From positions 4,216,001-4,280,000 of the forward strand of contig NZ_CP045119.1 in NCBI RefSeq assembly GCF_011492945.1: a stretch of 64,000 nt of DNA, written 5' to 3'. The notes under the pieces were generated by a model. It worked only from the letters and a program-made list of their open reading frames with translations, did no database searches and had not been told where the DNA came from. How positions within the stretch are numbered: the first letter of the stretch is position 1; every line of letters begins with the position of its first letter. This stretch comes from Rubrobacter tropicus (GTDB lineage Bacteria > Actinomycetota > Rubrobacteria > Rubrobacterales > Rubrobacteraceae). This document shows positions 32,066-41,983 of the stretch, piece after piece. A program made the position numbers and the translations under genes.

Positions 32066-32119
32066 GTAGGCAACGGTAGAGGTCGCGTGTTACAGGAGAG
32101 TTAGACGCGGATTGGAAAC

Positions 32120-32127
32120 CTCTAATG
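32120..32127 (-). promoter_or_regulatory. CTCTAATG octamer, copy 1
   Basis: Reads CATTAGAG on the minus strand, 55 bases before the phosphotransferase start. Identical copies precede the two neighbouring secreted-protein genes. Confidence 0.35.
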
Positions 32128-32214: not shown

Positions 32215-32802
32215 CTAGACCCTCGTGCACTGTCCTTCCTTGTCGCCGGCGGTGTTGCCGGAACCGACCGGGGCCGGGTTGTTCGACTGGCACTGGAGAT
32301 TCTGGGAGATCCTGTTGTTCTGGATCACGAGCCCGCCGTCGTTCTGGTTGGCCTGGAAGTTGGCGAGGATGGTGTTGCCCCGCGCCACCATCCTGGCGCT
32401 ATTGGAGAAGAACTGCAGGTCGCCGTTGATCCTGGAGTTCAAGACCTGCCCGTTGCCACCCCGAAGCCCGTTCTCGAGCTGCACGCTGCCGACCACGACG
32501 GAGCCCTGCCTGAGGTAGATCGCCTGGAAGCCCTCGCTCTGGACGTTGCCCTTGACCCTGATGCCGTTGGCGAAGAGCCTCGCGCTCCGCTCGACCTTGA
32601 CCGTCCCCTCGACCTTCGTCCCGTTCAGCGTACACGTCGCGCCCTGCGGCACCCGCAAGTTGTCCACCGTGGCCCCGCCGATGGTCCCCCGGCAGACCCG
32701 CTCCTCGGCCTGCGCCGCAGACGCCGCCATCAGCAGCGCCGCCACACCCACGACCAGCGCCATTATCCCCGTCAACGATACCGAAATTATCCTGCTAGAC
32801 AT
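32215..32802 (-). CDS. Secreted beta-repeat protein, unknown function
   Basis: 195 residues. A signal peptide (about 1-32, ending AASAAQAEE) is followed by short hydrophobic/Asn-Gly strands (GTIGGATVDNLRVP, GTKVEGTVKVE, IRVKGNVQSEG, RINGDLQFF, NTILANFQANQNDG). The regular spacing suggests a right-handed beta-helix or bactofilin-like solenoid. Two cysteine pairs may be disulfides. It is last in line behind the sigma/CHAT/subtilase genes and carries GTTAAACGA and CTCTAATG upstream, as do members of that locus. Confidence 0.7.
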   Translation of the reverse strand: MSSRIISVSLTGIMALVVGVAALLMAASAAQAEERVCRGTIGGATVDNLRVPQGATCTLNGTKVEGTVKVERSARLFANGIRVKGNVQSEGFQAIYLRQGSVVVGSVQLENGLRGGNGQVLNSRINGDLQFFSNSARMVARGNTILANFQANQNDGGLVIQNNRISQNLQCQSNNPAPVGSGNTAGDKEGQCTRV

Positions 32803-32900
32803 ACCCTCGCTCCTTTTTTCCAGGCTCCGAACGACCCCGCCGGCCTCCGATAGCTCTTTGCCTTACACCCCACAAGTGCAGGTCTCGAAGTGAAAAGATA

Positions 32901-32932
32901 GTTAAACGAAGAAGTATGAGAAGACTCTAATG
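32901..32932 (-). promoter_or_regulatory. GTTAAACGA and CTCTAATG elements upstream of the beta-repeat gene
   Basis: GTTAAACGA (32901-32909) and CTCTAATG (32925-32932) occur together, separated by 15 bases, about 100-130 bases before the start at 32802. Each string recurs upstream of other minus-strand genes nearby. Confidence 0.4.
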
Positions 32933-32945
32933 AGCCCGACAAGAG

Positions 32946-32977
32946 GAGAGGCCCCGCCAGTGATGGCGGGGCCTCTC
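32946..32977 (-). terminator. 13-bp hairpin after the subtilase gene
   Basis: Perfect arms at 32946-32958 and 32965-32977 around a six-base loop, 22 bases past the subtilase stop. Confidence 0.7.
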
Positions 32978-32998
32978 GTCGGTGGGGTTGTCCCCGGG

Positions 32999-34345
32999 TC
33001 AATCGTCGTTGCTCGTACACTGGACGGTGGCGTTGGAGGCCTGATCGACGCTCTCCACGAAGTCCGCGTAACCGCCGAGCATGGCGCCATGCGTCGGGTC
33101 CGAGGTCGTCAACGGGTCCCTGGTCTGCTCGACGAATCCCTTGACGCAGGCCGCGTCGGCGCCAGGCCTGGCGGATTTGATCAGGGCCGCCTGACCCGCC
33201 ACGAACGGCGTCGCCATCGAGGTTCCGCTCCACATCGCGTAGCGACTCGTCGGGAAGGGGGCATAGATGTCGGTACCGGGGGCGGCCACCGTCACCCAGC
33301 CACCGAAGTTGGAAAAATCGGACTTCTTCTTCTGGTCGTCCACGGAGGCCACGGCAATGGCGCCATCCTCGGCGGCGGGGAACTGCAGCACCTGGTTGGC
33401 GTCGTTGCCGGCGGCGGCCACGAAGACCGTGGGGCCCGCGTCGTCATCGTCGTCCCCGATCAGGTCCCCGAGCAGCTCCGTGTTCCGCGAGGAGCCCAGG
33501 CTGAGGTTCACCACGTCGGCGCCGCGGCGGGTGGCGAACTTTATGGCCTTCGCGATCCCGAACGTCGTGCCCCGGCCCTCCGTATCGAGCGCCCGGATCG
33601 GCATGATCTTCGCCTCGGGCGCCGCCAGCGCCACTATTCCGGCTACGTGCGTGCCGTGGCCGACCATCTCGTCCTTCACGCCGTCAAAGTCGTTGTCCCT
33701 GCCATCGCCGACATCGTAGGGACCGCTGTCGTTGCCGACGAAGTCGTAGCCCGCAACCATCTTGCCGGCAAACTCCCGGTGCCCGAGCTGCACGCCCGTG
33801 TCGATCACCGCCACCACCGCGCCCGCGCCCCGGCTGGTCTGGTGCGCTTCGGCCAGGTTCAGGTTGCTGACAGCGTATTGGTTCCGGTATTGCGTGGCTT
33901 CGGGAGAAGGTGTGGGGGTGCCGCCGGGACGGGCATTGTGCCGCCTGCTGCCTTCCGGTGATCCGGCCCTGAAGTTCGGCTCGGCATAGAGCACGCGTGC
34001 ATCATTCCGCATCTGCGATGCCAGCCTGGCCGGGTTTACTCCCGCCCGCGCACCGACAAGATAAATCTTCTCGACGCCCGGTAGTACCTGGAGCGTCCTG
34101 GTCCTGAACTTCTTGTTGAACGCCACCACACTGGCGTTGGTGGTTCCCGGTTTGAACTTCACCACGACCTGCCGGGGGACGAACTCACCCCCGTCGTCAT
34201 CATCGTCGTCCGCGACCGCAGGACCGGCAAGAGACAGGCACAGCAGCGCCGCTGCCACCGCCGCCAGCAGCGCAAAAAGAACGGGGTACCGGGACGAAGT
34301 GTCCGTGTATGTGAAGTCGGTTTGCCGGATCGTGAGACGTTCCAT
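32999..34345 (-). CDS. Secreted S8 subtilisin-like serine protease
   Basis: 448 residues. A signal/TM segment (about 20-45), an Asp run, an inhibitor-I9-like propeptide (about 55-126, VVVKFKPGTTN, VLYAEPNFRAG), a Pro/Thr linker and the catalytic domain. The triad is visible: D182 (AVIDTGV), H230 (GHGTHVAG), S376 (SGTSMATP), plus oxyanion N314 (AAGND). It should be active outside the membrane after propeptide removal. It follows the CHAT protease gene on the same strand with a 174-base gap containing an ATTAGAG/CTCTAAT palindrome. Confidence 0.93.
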   Translation of the reverse strand: MERLTIRQTDFTYTDTSSRYPVLFALLAAVAAALLCLSLAGPAVADDDDDDGGEFVPRQVVVKFKPGTTNASVVAFNKKFRTRTLQVLPGVEKIYLVGARAGVNPARLASQMRNDARVLYAEPNFRAGSPEGSRRHNARPGGTPTPSPEATQYRNQYAVSNLNLAEAHQTSRGAGAVVAVIDTGVQLGHREFAGKMVAGYDFVGNDSGPYDVGDGRDNDFDGVKDEMVGHGTHVAGIVALAAPEAKIMPIRALDTEGRGTTFGIAKAIKFATRRGADVVNLSLGSSRNTELLGDLIGDDDDDAGPTVFVAAAGNDANQVLQFPAAEDGAIAVASVDDQKKKSDFSNFGGWVTVAAPGTDIYAPFPTSRYAMWSGTSMATPFVAGQAALIKSARPGADAACVKGFVEQTRDPLTTSDPTHGAMLGGYADFVESVDQASNATVQCTSNDD

Positions 34346-34436
34346 GGTTCCCTCCCAAAGAGCAGCACGCCGTCGGCGACGGCGTTTCTACAGTCCTAAG
34401 GGTAGGAGTGCGTCATTGGACTCCGATGATACGGAG

Positions 34437-34453
34437 ATTAGAGAACTCTAATG
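34437..34453 (-). promoter_or_regulatory. ATTAGAG-AA-CTCTAAT palindrome with CTCTAATG octamer
   Basis: Perfect 7-bp arms (34437-34443, 34446-34452) around AA, 92 bases before the subtilase start. The right arm is the third copy of CTCTAATG. Confidence 0.5.
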
Positions 34454-34519
34454 CTGGGGACGTACGCCCTTTCCGCAAGTATTGCGGTGGCATCGTTTCG
34501 TACAAACAAGAACGAGCCG

Positions 34520-37420
34520 CTAACGCTTTCCGATCAAGACGAACGGCGCCCAGTAGTAAGGATGGGCGTACCGTTCCTTAAGTTCCAACTGCGCGTCGCG
34601 TAAGGCTTGCGCCGGCCCCGCGCCGTCGCGCAGCCGTGCGTAAAACTCGCCCATCAGTTCTGCCGTCGCCTCGTCCTGCGCCAGCCACAGACTGACCACG
34701 AGCGTCGCGGCGCCTGCCCCGAGGAAGGCCCGGGTCAGACCGAGGATCTCGTCGCCGCCGATCACCTCGCCACGTCCCGACTCGCACGCGCTCAGCGTGA
34801 CGAGGGCGTCCGGCAAGTTCAGGCTCATGGCGTCGGCGGCCGTCAACCAGCCGTCGTGCAGCTTGAGAGCCGAGAACATCGGGTTGTCGGAGCGAAACAG
34901 GCCGTGGCAAGCCAGGTGCAGGGCACCGCTCTCTGACGCATCGCCCCGCAGAGATCCGATCGTCGCGTCCCCGCCCACGCGCACCTTCGCCCCGGGCAGG
35001 TGCCCCGCGACGGTCCGGGCCTCAGCCGCCGCCGATGGAATCGAAGGGTCCTCCACGCCGAACACCGCCGCCCCCTCCCGGTCCCACGATGACCGTTTCT
35101 GGCACAACGAGTAAACCGTGGCGCTGGGGGCGGAAGAGATCTCGAAGCTCTCGATCAGGTAACGTTCACCATCGAACAGCGCGTGGAACGGAACCCGATG
35201 CAAGGGACCGTGTGGCACGATGGCAAGCTGCGAAATCCGGTCGCTGCCGTCAGAGACTCGGGACGCCGCTCCACCCAGGAGCGATTCGAGGGGGGCGATC
35301 AACCCATCGTACAACGCGGCCAACACCTGGCGCGTCGACCGCTCCATCTTCGCCATGTGACGTTCGGCGAACGCCTGGCCCGCGCGGAAGCGATCCAGTT
35401 GAACGTCCAGCCTGCGCAAGAGTTGGTTGACCCCGGTCACCGTACTGAGACCGCGCACGACCCGGATGCGTCCTTCGACGCTGACGAAGGCCAGGATCTC
35501 ATCGCCAAGGGCATGATAGGCCACCAACGTCGTATCGGACGGAAGCAGGTCCTGGACGTCGTCCGGCAACGCCGACGCCGCGAACGGATCGCGTGTAGGG
35601 TCGGCGGCGGCGATCTGCAGGCGCAGCCTACTGATCTCCTGCTCCAACTCTACGGCCCGCGCGTGCAGGTCGGGGAGAGGCGAGGGACGCTCTTCGACAC
35701 CCGGGCCTCCCAACAGTTCGCCGTAGACCGCGTTGAGATCGGCCTGCAGGGCCCGGATGCGGCTCCCCATCTCGGGGTCTGCGGACCTTACCGGCTCTTT
35801 CTCGCCAAACCCGGTGATCAGGTCGACCAGCGAGCGGGACTTGGCCCGCTCGGCGACGGCGAAGGCGCCTCGGACGTTCTCCTCGTCGTCCCGGGCGAGG
35901 TGTAGCAGCAGGAGGTCTTCGTAGGCGGCGGTCTTGTCGCGCATGAAAGAGGCTCGTATCGCGTCGTGGGAGACGACGCCGCGCAGGCGCTCGATCTCGT
36001 CCACCGCCGCCTCCAGCAGTGCTCGCGCCTCCTCCTCGCGGCCTTGCAGGCGCCGCAGGTGGCCGAGGCGTTCGTTCAGCCGGTAGCGCAGTTGTGGTAG
36101 CGCCAGCCGGTCGGCCAGACGTCGTGCCGCGAGCAGGTGCGGCTCGGCCTCGCCAACGTCGGGCAGCAACAGGTCGGCAAGACGCAAGCGGGCGTAGAGT
36201 TGCTGCACCGGCCAGTCGTCTTTGGAGACGAGATCCAGCGCCCGGTGCGCCGTTGTCAAGGCGGCTTCGTGTTCATTCTGGGCCTCTAGCAAAGCTGCCT
36301 GCTCAAGCATCACACCGGAGAGCATGGGCACGTTGTAAGCCGTGGAGAACAACCTTGTGGCTTCGTCCAGCGCCCCTTCTGCCTCCTTCAGCTCTGACAG
36401 GGCGATCAACGCAGAACCCTTGCCCCAAAGCGTCTGGGCACGGTCCTGCGTCATGCCAGTGCACTCCAGCAGGCTGTCGACTTCTTGGTACGACACTAGC
36501 GCCTCGGAATACAGGTTGAGTGCGAGGTAGGTATCGGCCGTTTTGTGCAAGATAAAGTATTGTTCGGCACGCGCTTCGGAGGGGCTCAACAACCGCTGCG
36601 CCCGTTCGAATGCGCGGAGGCTACTCGTGTAGTTGCCTAGCCACAAGTGAGTTTCTCCGACATTGCTGAGGGACATGGCGTGCGACAGGGTGAGACCCGC
36701 TTTATCGAAGATGGCAGCGGCAGTCTCATGGGAAGCCAGCGCCTCGTTGCCCCGGCCGAGATAAGAAAGTATGGTGCCTCGGTTGTCGAAGATCTCACCG
36801 AGACGTTCTTTCATACCGAGTCTCCGGTAGTGTTTTTCCGCAGCCGCGTAGACGTCGAGCGTCTCCCTGTAACGCCCCATCTGTTCAAAGCAGCGACCGC
36901 GATTTTGATGTACCAGGGCGGTCAGCAGATCGAATTCTCGCGATGTTGGGCTCACGTCGGGGTCGCCCCCACCGTTCAGAGCGTCAAGGACGGTCTGACC
37001 GGCATCGAGGGCCTCCTGATAACGTCCGAGCTCAAGAAGCGCGGCCATCTTTCCGACGTTGGTGCGGAGGGCTTCCAGGTTCATCCCGAGCGCAATATAT
37101 CCATCGTGGGCAGATTCGGTTAGTCGAAGATCCCTCTCGAACTCACCGTTCAGGTTGTGCGCGCCGGCACGGATGTAGTCGGCGCGTGGCACGGCGGCGG
37201 CGGCCTTCGCCTCATCCGCCAGCCCGCCGCAGAGTTCCGCCAATCTTTGCGCTTTGCCTGGATCTTCGTTGAGCAACCTGTCGGCCGCATCGAGCAGTCG
37301 GTCTAATCCACCGGCGTCAAGCAATCCCGCTCTGCGCAAGAACTCGACCCGCTGCTCTCGCGTCTGGAGGGCGAGGAGGTCTTCTACTAAACCTGGTTCG
37401 ATTCCATCTTCGGCTGACAT
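34520..37420 (-). CDS. TPR-CHAT protein, caspase-like cysteine protease
   Basis: 966 residues, cytosolic. A short helical N-terminus (about 1-60), TPR-like helical repeats (about 75-480, e.g. NRGRCFEQMGRYRETLDVY, FDNRGTILSYLGRGNEALA), a helical linker and a C-terminal CHAT domain (about 660-966). The dyad is present: H839 in HLACHG and C879 in LSACESG, so it should be proteolytic. CHAT proteases cut specific partners in caspase-like bacterial signalling. It follows the anti-sigma-like gene by 9 bases and precedes the subtilase. ATG start. Confidence 0.92.
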   Translation of the reverse strand: MSAEDGIEPGLVEDLLALQTREQRVEFLRRAGLLDAGGLDRLLDAADRLLNEDPGKAQRLAELCGGLADEAKAAAAVPRADYIRAGAHNLNGEFERDLRLTESAHDGYIALGMNLEALRTNVGKMAALLELGRYQEALDAGQTVLDALNGGGDPDVSPTSREFDLLTALVHQNRGRCFEQMGRYRETLDVYAAAEKHYRRLGMKERLGEIFDNRGTILSYLGRGNEALASHETAAAIFDKAGLTLSHAMSLSNVGETHLWLGNYTSSLRAFERAQRLLSPSEARAEQYFILHKTADTYLALNLYSEALVSYQEVDSLLECTGMTQDRAQTLWGKGSALIALSELKEAEGALDEATRLFSTAYNVPMLSGVMLEQAALLEAQNEHEAALTTAHRALDLVSKDDWPVQQLYARLRLADLLLPDVGEAEPHLLAARRLADRLALPQLRYRLNERLGHLRRLQGREEEARALLEAAVDEIERLRGVVSHDAIRASFMRDKTAAYEDLLLLHLARDDEENVRGAFAVAERAKSRSLVDLITGFGEKEPVRSADPEMGSRIRALQADLNAVYGELLGGPGVEERPSPLPDLHARAVELEQEISRLRLQIAAADPTRDPFAASALPDDVQDLLPSDTTLVAYHALGDEILAFVSVEGRIRVVRGLSTVTGVNQLLRRLDVQLDRFRAGQAFAERHMAKMERSTRQVLAALYDGLIAPLESLLGGAASRVSDGSDRISQLAIVPHGPLHRVPFHALFDGERYLIESFEISSAPSATVYSLCQKRSSWDREGAAVFGVEDPSIPSAAAEARTVAGHLPGAKVRVGGDATIGSLRGDASESGALHLACHGLFRSDNPMFSALKLHDGWLTAADAMSLNLPDALVTLSACESGRGEVIGGDEILGLTRAFLGAGAATLVVSLWLAQDEATAELMGEFYARLRDGAGPAQALRDAQLELKERYAHPYYWAPFVLIGKR

Positions 37421-37429
37421 ATCCCCATT

Positions 37430-38053
37430 TTACGCACCCAGCTCTACGGGGGAGATGAGGATCTCGACCTCGTCGCTGCTTAGCAGGATCTGGTACTCCC
37501 CGGGCTCCACACCCTCGAAGGCGAACTCGCCGAGCTCGTCCGTTGCGGTGGTGGCGACTTCTTCTGTTCCGAGGAGGATCTGGACCCCGAACGCCTCGGG
37601 CTCCTCGTCGTCGTTCGGGAAGACCTGCCCGTCGAGGTCGAGCCTCCCATCACCTGGACGCCGCCTGAAGTTGAGCGCGATGTCGGCCGCCTCTGTTGTG
37701 TAGACGAGCTGGCCCTGCGATTCCTGGGACGCGGCCGAACGCACCCCGGCCAGCGGCTGCAGACCGCCGCCGAAGGAGAGGGTGGCGACGAGGCGCTTCA
37801 GGGGTCCGGGTTGGCGATGACCTTCCGCGTACGATTCGAAGATGCGCCCGAGCTCCGCGCGCTGTTCGGCGGGTGGGTCGTCTAGCACGACCTCTTTGCT
37901 GGCGCGGGAGAACGACCTGAGCCACTCGGCGTCGGCGCGGGTGGCGTCGTCGGCGTCGGCAATCCGCCCTTCAACGGCGCGGGCCTCTGCTTCGGGGAGG
38001 CGCCCCTCGGCCCAGTCGGCGAGTGTTTCGAAGTCTATCTTCTCCTGGCTCAC
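37430..38053 (-). CDS. Anti-sigma-like protein with carboxypeptidase-regulatory-like C-terminus
   Basis: 207 residues. The N-terminal helices (FETLADWAEGRLPEAEARA, DAEWLRSFSRA) resemble the sigma-binding region of zinc-less anti-sigma factors. There is no convincing TM helix and no CxxC. The C-terminal 60 residues (FGVQILLGTEE, TDELGEFAFEGVEPGEYQILL) form a beta-sandwich of the carboxypeptidase-regulatory type. GTG 38053 has GGGAGG nine bases upstream; TTG 38074 is less likely. It lies between the sigma gene and the CHAT gene, so it may be the regulator that the CHAT protease cleaves. Confidence 0.65.
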   Translation of the reverse strand: MSQEKIDFETLADWAEGRLPEAEARAVEGRIADADDATRADAEWLRSFSRASKEVVLDDPPAEQRAELGRIFESYAEGHRQPGPLKRLVATLSFGGGLQPLAGVRSAASQESQGQLVYTTEAADIALNFRRRPGDGRLDLDGQVFPNDDEEPEAFGVQILLGTEEVATTATDELGEFAFEGVEPGEYQILLSSDEVEILISPVELGA

Positions 38054-38107
38054 TGTTTCGTGCCTCCCGTACAAGACTCTCCCGTTCTAAGTATCTTTCC
38101 CCCCGTC

Positions 38108-38116
38108 GTTAAACGA
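38108..38116 (-). promoter_or_regulatory. GTTAAACGA element upstream of the anti-sigma-like gene
   Basis: Reads TCGTTTAAC on the minus strand, 55 bases before the GTG start in the 118-base gap after the sigma gene. Copies lie at 30794-30802 and 32901-32909; possibly part of a promoter read by the adjacent sigma factor. Confidence 0.35.
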
Positions 38117-38171
38117 ATGCGACACGGGGCACGGAAAAATACACCGGGGGCGGATATCTTTGGGAAATGGG

Positions 38172-38723
38172 TCAACGTTCACCCAGGGCCGTTCGGAGGC
38201 GTTGCAGGCAGCGGGCGCGGGTGGGGCCGATGCTGCCGACGGGCATGTCGAGGCGTTCGGAGATCTCGGCGTAGGACGGCTCCGTCTCGTCCAGGTAGAG
38301 CGCCTTCAGGAGCCTCCGGCAGGGCTCGCTGACCTCCGAGAGGCCCTGATCCAGCCAGTCGATAAGCTCCCACTTCTCCGACGGCTTCTCGTTGCCGAGC
38401 AGCCAGGGGGTTTCGGCGAGGTCGTCCTCGCGGCCCGGGCGCTCGCGGCGGCCCTTCTCCATGGCGCGCCAGGTGTGGCGGCGGGCGACGGTTGCGAGCC
38501 AGGCCTTGAGGTTGCTCTCCTCGGTGAGGGAATCTAGCGATTGGATCAGGATGGTGAACGTGAGCTGGGAGACGTCGGCCGCGTCCTCCCGCGAGAGCCC
38601 GTAGCTGCGGGGTATGGAGAAGACGAGCCGCTGGTACTTGTCCATCACGCGCTCCCAGGCCCGGGCCTCGCCCTTCTTGCAGCCGCGTATAAGGTCTTTG
38701 TCCGTCCCCCTCACGACGCCCAT
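38172..38723 (-). CDS. ECF-type RNA polymerase sigma factor
   Basis: 183 residues. Region 2 (about 10-80) has YQRLVFSIPRSYGLSREDAADVSQLTFTILI in separate helices and ends in WLATVARRHTWR. Region 4 (about 125-180) has YAEISERLDMPVGSIGPTRARCLQRL, a form common in ECF sigma factors tied to repeat-protein clusters. I place the start at ATG 38723; 12 more codons exist upstream without a ribosome site. Three 11-bp direct repeats (TCTAAC type) precede it. The downstream order is sigma, anti-sigma-like, CHAT, subtilase. Confidence 0.9.
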   Translation of the reverse strand: MGVVRGTDKDLIRGCKKGEARAWERVMDKYQRLVFSIPRSYGLSREDAADVSQLTFTILIQSLDSLTEESNLKAWLATVARRHTWRAMEKGRRERPGREDDLAETPWLLGNEKPSEKWELIDWLDQGLSEVSEPCRRLLKALYLDETEPSYAEISERLDMPVGSIGPTRARCLQRLRTALGER

Positions 38724-38768
38724 GATAATGCACGAAAGCCCCGGCCACCAAAGGCCCACATTACAACC

Positions 38769-38801
38769 TTCTAACGGGCTTCTAACCGGCCTCTAACGAT
38801 C
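38769..38801. promoter_or_regulatory. Three 11-bp tandem repeats, OmpR-box-like
   Basis: CTAAC recurs at 38771, 38782 and 38793, each preceded by TT or CT, an exact 11-bp period. This is the spacing used by OmpR/PhoB-type response regulators. It lies between the sigma gene (-) and the secreted-protein gene (+), and an OmpR-type regulator gene is 700 bases away. Confidence 0.6.
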
Positions 38802-38887: not shown

Positions 38888-39457
38888 TTGCGCCCGTTCC
38901 GTCTGACGGCAGGCGTCCCGGCGGCCGTGCTCGTCCTGGCGTTTGTCCCCCTCTTCTTCGATTGTGGCCTCCAGGCCCGGGCGACGGACGGGGAGACGGC
39001 CTCCCGTACGGGGAACCAGCGCCTCGTGGGGACTACCTCGCGGGAAGAAAGGACTGAGAAAGACCCTGAAGGCGAGACGCTCTCGGCCTCCGTACCTCGG
39101 GAAGACGCGCGTGGCGAGCCGGTCCCAGGTCTTCCCCGGCACCCGGGCTCGGTAAGGGTCGGTTACTCGGAGAGGCGGGCGGACGGGCTGGCGCTGGTAA
39201 GCGCCACGTACCTGGCCGAAGGGAGGCCCGACGCGGTGCGCGGGTTCTACCGCGGGGTGTTCCGCTCCGGGGGATGGCAGGTCGCGAACGTGGAGTACTC
39301 GGGCGGGGCCTGGCACTTTCTCGTCCTGCGCGGGGGCACGGAGGCGGCCGTGGAAGTCCTGCCCCGCGAGGGGGGTTCGGAAGTCAGGATCGAGTCGAGC
39401 GGTCCGGCGGCCGGCGCTCAGGAAGGAATAGCATCGGCGGGCGGTTCGAAGCGGTAA
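38888..39457 (+). CDS. Secreted hypothetical protein, 189 aa
   Basis: I do not recognise the family. The N-terminus is a signal peptide (AAVLVLAFVPLFFDCG, possibly a lipobox with Cys near residue 26). A disordered charged stretch (30-85) is followed by a small alpha/beta domain (YSERRADGLALVSATYLAEG, FYRGVFRSGGWQVANVEYSGGAWHFLVL). TTG start after GGAGAGGAGAG. The 3' end overlaps the convergent response regulator gene by 40 bases. Confidence 0.7.
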   Translation: MRPFRLTAGVPAAVLVLAFVPLFFDCGLQARATDGETASRTGNQRLVGTTSREERTEKDPEGETLSASVPREDARGEPVPGLPRHPGSVRVGYSERRADGLALVSATYLAEGRPDAVRGFYRGVFRSGGWQVANVEYSGGAWHFLVLRGGTEAAVEVLPREGGSEVRIESSGPAAGAQEGIASAGGSKR

Positions 39458-40107
39458 CCGGCGCCCCTCACGGTCTGGATCACGGACGGCTCGCCCCGCC
39501 TGTCGAGCTTGCTCCTCAGGTAGCGGACGTAGACGTCCACGACGTTGGAGCCGGGGTCGAAGGAGTAGTCCCAGACCGAAGAGAGTATCTGCTGGCGGCT
39601 CAACACCTGCCCCGGGTGGCGCATGAAGTACTCCAGCAGGGCGAACTCGCGGCTGGAGAGCTCCACCTGCTTCTCCCCGCGCCTGATGCGGCGGGAGCGG
39701 AGGTCCACGTTGAGGTCCCCGAACTCCATCCTGGAGGATTGGGGCTGATCCGAGCGGCGGGTGAGGGCGCGCATCCGGGCCAGCAGCTCCTCGAGGTCGA
39801 ACGGCTTTGTCAGGTAGTCGTCGGCCCCGCCGTCGAGGGCGTCGACCTTGTGGCGCACCTCGTCGCGGGCGGTGAGCATCAAGACCGGGAGGTCCGGACG
39901 CCTGAGGCGGATGCGCTGCAGCGCCTGCTGGCCGTCGAGGCGGGGCAACATGATGTCCAGAAGGACCATCTCGACGTTCTCCTCCGCGGCCAGGCGCACG
40001 CCCTCCTCGCCGTCGGCGGCCGACAGGGTGCTGTGCCCGTGGGCGGCCAGGCCGCGCTCCAAGAACCGCACGATGGCGGGGTCGTCCTCCACGATCAAGA
40101 CCAGCAT
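39418..40107 (-). CDS. OmpR/PhoB-family response regulator
   Basis: 229 residues. Receiver domain: acidic pair E7-D8, phosphorylation site D51 in LLDIMLP, conserved T/K in LMLTARD and LTKPFD. The C-terminal winged helix (ELSSREFALLEYFMRHPGQ, VDVYVRYLRSKLD, VRGAGYRFE) is a classic trans_reg_C domain. Divergent from its presumed histidine kinase with only 29 bases between starts. Confidence 0.95.
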   Translation of the reverse strand: MLVLIVEDDPAIVRFLERGLAAHGHSTLSAADGEEGVRLAAEENVEMVLLDIMLPRLDGQQALQRIRLRRPDLPVLMLTARDEVRHKVDALDGGADDYLTKPFDLEELLARMRALTRRSDQPQSSRMEFGDLNVDLRSRRIRRGEKQVELSSREFALLEYFMRHPGQVLSRQQILSSVWDYSFDPGSNVVDVYVRYLRSKLDRRGEPSVIQTVRGAGYRFEPPADAIPS

Positions 40108-40119
40108 ATAGCCCGCAAG

Positions 40120-40125
40120 TATAAT
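40120..40125 (+). promoter_or_regulatory. Consensus -10 element before the histidine kinase
   Basis: TATAAT is followed by AGGAGC and GTG at 40137, predicting a very short 5' leader. No good -35 is present at the expected spacing, so it may be an activated promoter. Confidence 0.5.
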
Positions 40126-40136
40126 GCAGGAGCGCC

Positions 40137-41630
40137 GTGAGCCGCACAGGGGCGTCCGGGAGGCGCCGGAAGGCAGGGGTTGTTTTGGGTTGGATCAGGG
40201 GCGTACGCGCCGAGCCGTGGCGGGTGACGATGGGGGCCGTCGGCGGCCTGCTGGTCGCGATCATCGTCGCCGGCCTCATAGGCTTCTGGCAGACCCAGAG
40301 CATCGAGCGCGTGGCCGACGAGGCGTTCGGCTACGTGGAATTGGAAGACGAAGGCGACGACATCCGCGCCGCGATCCTGGACGTCCGCCACTACCACCGC
40401 AACCTCTACTTCCCGGCCATCGACACAGGCCGCCTGACCCGCGAAGGCATGGACGACTTCGGGGCGGCCCGGGAGCAATTCTACGAGGAGATAGACGAAC
40501 TAGGCGGCGTCCGCCCCTACGACCCGAACGCCCCGCAACCGGAGGATTTCCGCCGCTGGGCGGACGAGTACTACGAGGATTTCGGGCCCTTCGCGCAAGA
40601 GGCGACGGTTACGGACGAGGAGGCTTTCGACCGGGCCAGCGACCTCGGCCTCAAGCGGCTCGCGCAGATGGAGCTGGCGGCGGAGGAGTTGGACGGGCTG
40701 GGAGAGGACCTGACGGACGACTCGCTCCAGAAGGTGGACCGGGCGGCGACGACCTCGGCCGTCGTGCTGCTCGGGGCCATCGTGGGCCTGCTGGTGGCCG
40801 GCGTGGCGCTCGCCTACGCGGCGGTGCGCGTCGTGAACGAGCTGAGGCGTCTCTACGCCGAACAGCACGAGACAGCCGATAAACTTGCCGAAGCCTCCCG
40901 GCAGAAGACCGACTTTCTCGCGGACGTCTCCCACGAGCTGCGCACGCCGCTCACGGTGTTGCGCGGCAACGCCCAGGTCGGCCTGGCCCTCGGGGCCGAA
41001 GGGGAGCAGAAGCAGCTCCTCGAAGAGGTGGTCGAGGAGTCAAAGCGCATGTCGCGCATGGTGGAGGAACTCCTCTTCCTCGCCCGCTCGGACTCCTCGC
41101 CGCCCTCCCTGGAGCCCGAGACCATCTCCATCCCGCCCGTGATGTCCGAGCTGGCCGGGCGGGCCGCGGTGCTCGCCAGGGAGCGCGGCGCCGTGCTCGA
41201 GGCTGACCTGCGGGCGGAGGGGACGCTGCGCGCGGACCCGGGCCGCCTGGAGCAGGCGGTCCTGATCCTGATCGACAACGCCATAAAGTACGGCCCGCCG
41301 GGCGGCACCGTGACGCTCCGCTCCGAAGTAACCCACTCTGGAGAACTGCGGATCACGGTCGAGGATCGGGGCCCCGGCATCCCGAAAGAGGACCTGCCCC
41401 GCATCTTCGAGCGCTTCTACCGGGTGGACAAGGCCCGCTCCCGAAGGATGGGCGGCACCGGCCTCGGCCTCCCCATAGCCAAGACCATAGTCGAGGCCCA
41501 CGGCGGCCACGTGACCGCCGAGAGCCGCCCGGGCAAGGGTACCCGCATGTCCGTACACCTCCCCATGCTAGAAGACCCGGCCAAAACCGCGCAGCCAACC
41601 CCCGCCCAACGCGAGGCCCAGAAAAGCTGA
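40137..41630 (+). CDS. Membrane sensor histidine kinase
   Basis: 497 residues: TM1 (about 30-52), an extracellular helical domain (55-205), TM2 (about 207-230), a coiled linker, then HisKA with H266 in SHELRTPL and HATPase_c (N box LILIDNAIKYG, G1 EDRGPGIP, F box IFERFYRVDKARSR, G2 GGTGLGL). Divergent partner of the OmpR-type regulator. GTG start with AGGAGC. The extracellular part contains DVRHYHRNLYFPAID, a four-helix sensor of unknown signal. Confidence 0.95.
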   Translation: MSRTGASGRRRKAGVVLGWIRGVRAEPWRVTMGAVGGLLVAIIVAGLIGFWQTQSIERVADEAFGYVELEDEGDDIRAAILDVRHYHRNLYFPAIDTGRLTREGMDDFGAAREQFYEEIDELGGVRPYDPNAPQPEDFRRWADEYYEDFGPFAQEATVTDEEAFDRASDLGLKRLAQMELAAEELDGLGEDLTDDSLQKVDRAATTSAVVLLGAIVGLLVAGVALAYAAVRVVNELRRLYAEQHETADKLAEASRQKTDFLADVSHELRTPLTVLRGNAQVGLALGAEGEQKQLLEEVVEESKRMSRMVEELLFLARSDSSPPSLEPETISIPPVMSELAGRAAVLARERGAVLEADLRAEGTLRADPGRLEQAVLILIDNAIKYGPPGGTVTLRSEVTHSGELRITVEDRGPGIPKEDLPRIFERFYRVDKARSRRMGGTGLGLPIAKTIVEAHGGHVTAESRPGKGTRMSVHLPMLEDPAKTAQPTPAQREAQKS

Positions 41631-41729: not shown

Positions 41730-41760
41730 ATTAGAGCCCTCTCAGATTAGACCCCTCTCA
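41730..41760. promoter_or_regulatory. 16-bp direct repeat ATTAGA(G/C)CCCTCTCA
   Basis: Copies begin at 41730 and 41746; a degenerate third (TCCTAATGGCCCCCTCA) follows at about 41767. It lies upstream of the poly-arginine small protein and resembles the ATTAGAG elements at 32-34 kb. Confidence 0.5.
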
Positions 41761-41860
41761 TCCCGTCCTAATGGCCCCCTCATTTTCGGGACGCACAATA
41801 CTCCCCGTAATCCCGAAACGGTGGGAAGCGCGAAGAAGCAACTACGGAGGAGGTGAACGA

Positions 41861-41983
41861 ATGGCTAAGTTCTCCAAGATGTCCCCGGCCCAGGTAAGCT
41901 CGCGGGACGGCAGCAACAGCGGTGGCGGCAGCAGGAGGCGCCGTCGGCGCCGGAGGCGCAGGCGTCGTCGTCGCAACACCTAG
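41861..41983 (+). CDS. 40-residue protein ending in 14 consecutive arginines
   Basis: The ORF reads MAKFSKMSPAQVSSRDG, a Ser/Gly linker, then R14-N-T and a stop. Translation signals are strong: GGAGGAGGTGA sits five bases before the ATG. The 14 Arg codons use five synonyms (AGG, CGC, CGT, CGG in mixed order), so this is not a simple nucleotide repeat, which argues for selection on the arginine run. A strong terminator begins 27 bases after the stop. An RNA- or DNA-binding, ribosome-associated or protamine-like role is inference only. A longer in-frame start at 41771 lacks a ribosome site. Confidence 0.8.
   Translation: MAKFSKMSPAQVSSRDGSNSGGGSRRRRRRRRRRRRRRNT

Follow-up and report, generated by a model that had tools for sequence, protein, structure and literature searches.

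A conserved cassette of ECF sigma factor, candidate anti-sigma factor, TPR-CHAT protease, and secreted subtilase in Rubrobacter tropicus suggests a protease-gated sigma switch

Within a stretch of 64,000 nucleotides from Rubrobacter tropicus (hereafter the window), we identified a conserved cassette of four genes that encode an ECF sigma factor, a small protein of 207 aa, a TPR-CHAT protease, and a secreted S8 subtilase. The module is real and conserved, as the cassette is present in the bacterial family of the window and in genomes of three phyla (its own, and records of Chloroflexota and Acidobacteriota). Its best single explanation is a protease-gated cytoplasmic sigma switch, a full cascade to which we assign a probability of about 0.5 based on sequences, structural models, and analogy with known systems. 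The ECF sigma factor would be held inactive through binding by a class I anti-sigma domain at the N-terminus of the small protein, until an intracellular cue or partner on the TPR superhelix activates the CHAT protease, by analogy with Csx29. The CHAT protease would then cut the anti-sigma factor, most plausibly in a disordered loop around R105, and the sigma factor would be freed either by the cut itself or once the fragment has been degraded. The freed sigma factor would drive its own operon and probably the production of the S8 subtilase, which is expected to act outside the cell. For the release step, CHAT cleavage of a soluble anti-sigma factor is the likeliest route.

The first-pass annotation of this locus had described five consecutive minus-strand genes, and all five open reading frames of the cassette region are present as first described in the ORF listing of the window, with family searches in agreement. 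The features of the locus, in window coordinates, are:

38760..38796, minus strand: box TTAGAAGGTTGTAAT with 11-bp phased GTTAGA repeats, before the sigma gene; similar sequences before the sigma gene in loci L091, L092, and L129
38172..38723, minus strand: ECF sigma factor, 183 aa from ATG 38723; TIGR02937 and Sigma70_r2 over cut-off
37430..38053, minus strand: predicted soluble anti-sigma factor (the small protein), from GTG 38053; N-terminal profile and fold matches, zinc motif in homologues, R105
34520..37420, minus strand: TPR-CHAT protease, 966 aa, without signal peptide, dyad H839/C879; PF12770 and TPR_12
34437..34451, minus strand: box TTAGAGTTCTCTAAT before the S8 gene; box search
32999..34345, minus strand: S8 subtilase, predicted to be secreted, with Fervidolysin-type prodomain and triad D182/H230/S376; PF00082 and PF22148
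32916..32930, minus strand: box TTAGAGTCTTCTCAT before the solenoid gene; box search
32215..32802, minus strand: beta-repeat (solenoid-like) protein, predicted to be secreted, 195 aa; signal-peptide-like N-terminus, no family
32111-32125 and 41730-41761: further box copies in the window, part of five promoters in 10 kb

The gaps between the sigma, small-protein, CHAT, S8, and solenoid genes measure 118, 9, 174, and 196 bases, respectively. From these sizes, the small protein and the CHAT protease are probably co-transcribed (9 bases), and the S8 and solenoid genes can have their own promoters (174 and 196 bases). The identity of the ECF sigma factor was confirmed by matches to TIGR02937 (71 bits, cut-off 42.9) and Sigma70_r2 (37 bits, cut-off 24), and its solved relatives are RpoE and SigW.

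Several counts bear on the conservation of the cassette. The CHAT protein occurs in six of the nine genomes of the genus, and full-length CHAT relatives with 43–58% identity are found in Chloroflexota records and in one record labeled “uncultured actinobacterium”; all six of these distant full-length relatives have the same neighbors in the same order. A search with the small-protein profile (alignment A2) in the phylum of the window and in the phyla of one Chloroflexota and one Acidobacteriota genome recovered 75 rows, with the sigma, CHAT, and S8 genes all within 6 kb in 41 and the CHAT gene in 61. Of the 55 loci that were retrieved with the small protein as the only query, several of them on short contigs, CHAT was encoded within 6 kb in 42, sigma in 41, and S8 in 32. 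This co-occurrence is far above chance. All ten checked genomes with the small protein at a CHAT-less locus encode CHAT elsewhere, and the three checked genomes with only ordinary anti-sigma matches have no CHAT.

The usual gene order is sigma, anti-sigma, CHAT, S8. Departures from it include sigma-CHAT-anti-sigma-S8 in loci L018, L019, and L229, an upstream S8 gene in L096, and, in another actinobacterial family (L139-L141), the order CHAT-sigma-small protein with a divergent S8 gene on the other strand whose product has no signal peptide. The conserved sigma-CHAT-S8 order that had been predicted for other genomes was recovered, and the genes are not scattered, which was the first refutation test that the first-pass annotation had set itself. 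Its fifth member, the secreted beta-solenoid-like gene, is present with a signal-peptide-like N-terminus and without a match in family searches, and it falls outside the conserved set: it was seen only in L092, L097, and L129. As this gene is restricted to those loci and a neighboring APH gene to the genus, both are local additions. Pairs of small protein and CHAT with no sigma gene within 6 kb were observed in L036, L039, L084, L219, L220, L222, and L223, including Chloroploca. In a relative (L009, L097; G005:C214), a frame change splits the CHAT gene, and a shortened S8 gene runs into the solenoid gene; this cassette appears to be decaying, or to contain assembly errors.

The strongest part of the proposed cascade is the anti-sigma identity of the small protein. 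Its predicted architecture combines a class I anti-sigma domain (about residues 1–80) with an Ig/transthyretin-like sandwich (86–205) that carries a disordered loop (98–110), and in the AlphaFold model (mean pLDDT 79) four helices at the N-terminus are followed by a beta sandwich. Residues 1–57 of the model superpose on the ChrR anti-sigma domain (2z2s_F) with Z 8.7 and 2.0 A over 56 residues, and a profile of the N-termini matches the solved chains of DdvA (2e-7), RsiW (2e-5), and RslA (2e-4), as well as ChrR. Among homologous N-termini, Pfam zf-HC2 is found in 14 of 21 and NCBIfam RsrA in 11 of 21, and a zinc motif H-x(2-5)-C-x2-C is present at the expected place in 28 of 73 homologues, often as exactly Hx3Cx2C. 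The copy in the window has no zinc ligands at its N-terminus by the Hx3Cx2C test; the motif occurs in about half of the class I anti-sigma domains (ASDI), and zinc-free members are common (PMC7406223). The N-terminus of the window copy alone gave no significant match and single copies gave nothing above the Pfam cut-off, so that the domain was recognized only with the set of homologues, and the top Foldseek matches of the whole protein are sandwich folds.

Genomic context points in the same direction. The small protein is encoded directly downstream of the sigma gene in the window and likewise in most loci, and its A2 profile also finds ordinary anti-sigma proteins encoded directly after other ECF sigma genes (L142, L143, and L145), with an hhalign probability of 97.5% between the small protein and anti-sigma proteins beside other ECF sigma factors. 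No membrane segment is apparent in its sequence or model. Taken together, the N-terminal anti-sigma domain is well supported by profiles and predicted fold, and the anti-sigma-like N-terminus of the original description stands. For the carboxypeptidase-regulatory-like C-terminus proposed with it, the CarboxypepD_reg match is weak and below its cut-off, and the C-terminal half is modeled as an Ig-like sandwich. These results bear on an improbable alternative, the least probable of those weighed here, in which regulation is proteolytic and involves no anti-sigma factor, as stated for ECF54 (PMC8999054). Families such as L139-L141, in which the small protein has no recognizable anti-sigma domain though a GVR loop with the R is kept, would fit that view; against it, an anti-sigma domain is predicted beside the sigma factor in the window and most homologues, and the S8 subtilase is predicted to be exported and therefore could not reach the sigma factor.

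The putative protease of the switch, which is caspase-like, is encoded by the only CHAT gene of the 4.58-Mb genome. It matches PF12770 with 222 bits (cut-off 24) and also TPR_12, its H839/C879 dyad is intact with the numbering first given and is kept in 40 of 40 aligned relatives, and no hydrophobic helix is apparent at its start. The nearest solved folds to the model of the CHAT domain (pLDDT 89) are Csx29 of Craspase, followed by DdvA, separase, SAVED-CHAT, and gingipain. Cleavage of a sigma inhibitor by a TPR-CHAT protein has a real precedent in Csx29: it cuts Csx30, which inhibits CASP-sigma, an ECF factor, by binding to it, and so relieves CASP-sigma (PMC10028731). The S8 subtilase, described at first as secreted with an intact triad, matches PF00082 with 158 bits and has the residues D182/H230/S376. 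Because 38 of the 41 cassette S8 proteins have a signal-peptide-like stretch, the S8 subtilase should act outside the cell, and the CHAT protease, the anti-sigma factor, and the sigma factor inside. Assignment of the S8 protein as a type VII secretion mycosin was rejected (TIGR03921 169 bits vs a curated cut-off of 278.75), and PADLOC gave only generic subtilase matches and assigned no defense system.

Across the 41 complete cassettes, sequence distances correlate most strongly between sigma and anti-sigma (0.89), followed by sigma and CHAT (0.78) and anti-sigma and CHAT (0.71), and the S8 protein correlates with the other cassette proteins at 0.50–0.56; these values include common descent and measure something other than contact, and none of them was reached in 2000 permutations. 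Judged by this co-variation of sequences, the ranking of partners is as the model expects.

A candidate cut site is found in the loop that joins strands one and two of the sandwich, where the pLDDT is <50. All 73 homologues have R105 in this loop, as do all 56 that are left after thinning to <50% identity, a set with a median pairwise identity of 22% in which the other loop columns average 35%; Gly142 is the only other residue as constant. Such invariance within a predicted disordered loop is the pattern expected of a protease site. R105 could instead be a residue for folding or binding, since the sites at which Craspase cuts Csx30 (between A and S, L and D, and M and K) are not conserved in sequence. 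The position of the P1-Arg reader of separase, D2151, corresponds to Ala920 in the window CHAT via the equivalence with Csx29 K670 (PMC9729208), and the specificity of CHAT for Arg therefore lacks support from the S1 residue. A separase-like Arg pocket formed by D916, which is invariant, was considered and dropped because the numbering in PMC9729208 places the P1-Arg residue at A920.

The same data can be read in another way, in which the anti-sigma factor is freed otherwise, by a ligand on the Ig-like domain or by another protease, and the sigma factor has CHAT and S8 as its outputs, which might form a protease pair for, e.g., cell death or defense. We regard this as rather doubtful, although CHAT proteases act as effectors elsewhere (Craspase, gasdermin context; PMC9729208), the S8 protein, predicted to be secreted, shows weaker co-variation with sigma, and the gene order varies, as in the sigma-CHAT-anti-sigma arrangement of L018 and L019. 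A protease-substrate pair fits better with the small protein staying with CHAT in 11 rows that have no sigma gene within 6 kb, and with the invariance of R105 in its loop.

The cassette genes of the window also share a promoter element. The sigma operon, the S8 gene, the solenoid gene, and the APH gene are each preceded by a near-palindromic box of 15 bp, TTAGARNNNTCTMAT, and two copies stand before an Arg-rich ORF of 40 residues (41861-41983, plus strand; GGGSRRRRRR...), which has no family match. With at most one mismatch, about 13 separate genomic positions match the box, about half of them in the 10 kb of the cassette, a clustering count that is not independent as the pattern was derived from some of those sites. 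In total, the box has no more matches than a reversed control pattern does, and what sets it apart is their clustering. Independent support comes from its presence near sigma or S8 genes in other genera of the family (L129, L131, L132, and L135). In sequence, the box looks more like a dimer operator or transcription-factor site than an ECF promoter, and no sigma-70 promoter match was found around the cassette genes. An OmpR-type response regulator and a histidine kinase, encoded divergently, adjoin the cassette (39418-41630, with the regulator at 39418-40107), and the phased 11-bp GTTAG repeats before the sigma gene resemble the binding sites of the OmpR-type regulator class.

With a shared promoter box, another regulator may control the cassette genes. 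Taken further, there might be no cascade at all, with another transcription factor on the TTAGA box (e.g., the OmpR-type response regulator) co-regulating neighboring genes of a stress protease regulon. The placement of the box before all of these genes, its concentration in the 10 kb, and a copy before a distant zinc metallopeptidase gene (Zn_peptidase_2, C1:1383.2 kb; L246 ~2246-2260) would fit this reading. We consider it unlikely, since among the loci examined the box is seen almost only in the family of the window, whereas the cassette spans phyla, and co-regulation is in any case compatible with a cascade.

The substrates of CHAT proteases outside CRISPR are largely an open question, and the cassette names one specific candidate substrate, with a candidate site for the cut and sigma activity as an easy read-out. 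By analogy, it suggests that bacteria in general, and not just CRISPR systems, turn genes on by cutting an inhibitor. More tentatively, and with more doubt than we attach to the switch itself, a TPR-CHAT/anti-sigma/ECF-sigma switch that is cut at an invariant Arg loop may be widespread and independent of CRISPR, with Craspase/CASP-sigma and DdvA as specialized offshoots or parallels.

Among known systems, the proposed switch resembles the proteolysis of RseA by DegS and that of the RsiW type, where an anti-sigma factor is destroyed by a protease and an ECF sigma factor is freed, but those anti-sigma factors sit in the membrane and are cut by PDZ and site-2 proteases, which the window cassette does not encode. 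The DdvS-DdvA system of Myxococcus xanthus likewise combines an ECF sigma factor, a zinc class I anti-sigma domain, and a CHAT domain. DdvA, with an incomplete active site, is one transmembrane polypeptide, whereas the anti-sigma factor and CHAT of the window are separate and apparently soluble proteins, with the dyad intact and an S8 subtilase added. The window locus encodes no single chain of the DdvA type (anti-sigma, membrane helix, TPR-CHAT): the ORFs are separate, and no hydrophobic helix is apparent in the small protein or at the start of the CHAT protein. DdvA is the cognate anti-sigma factor of DdvS (PMC4374960), and structures are available as 8rlz, 8rot, and 8rw5.

The type III-E Craspase shares with the cassette a TPR-CHAT protease, an ECF sigma factor, and a sigma inhibitor, which in Craspase has an N-terminal sigma-binding part and a CHAT-cut loop; the S8 subtilase is an addition of the window cassette. 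Membership in Craspase was rejected, as the genome (97.7% complete) has no Cas7-11/RAMP (PF03787) match and the window lacks a CRISPR-like repeat array. The small protein gave no match to Csx30 among solved chains, though it may be a distant relative. Closest in gene content is ECF54, whose sigma genes have neighbors annotated as carboxypeptidase, subtilase, and CHAT, as at the window locus, and for which proteolytic regulation was proposed in a description without an anti-sigma factor (PMC8999054). The likeness is one of gene neighbors, and the window locus differs in that its “carboxypeptidase” gene is predicted to encode an anti-sigma domain and an Ig-like domain. The gene neighborhood is thus already in the literature as ECF54. 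What this analysis adds is the identification of an anti-sigma domain in the small protein, which revises the published view of ECF54-type loci as lacking an anti-sigma factor, together with the occurrence of the ordered cassette in three phyla and the invariance of the loop Arg.
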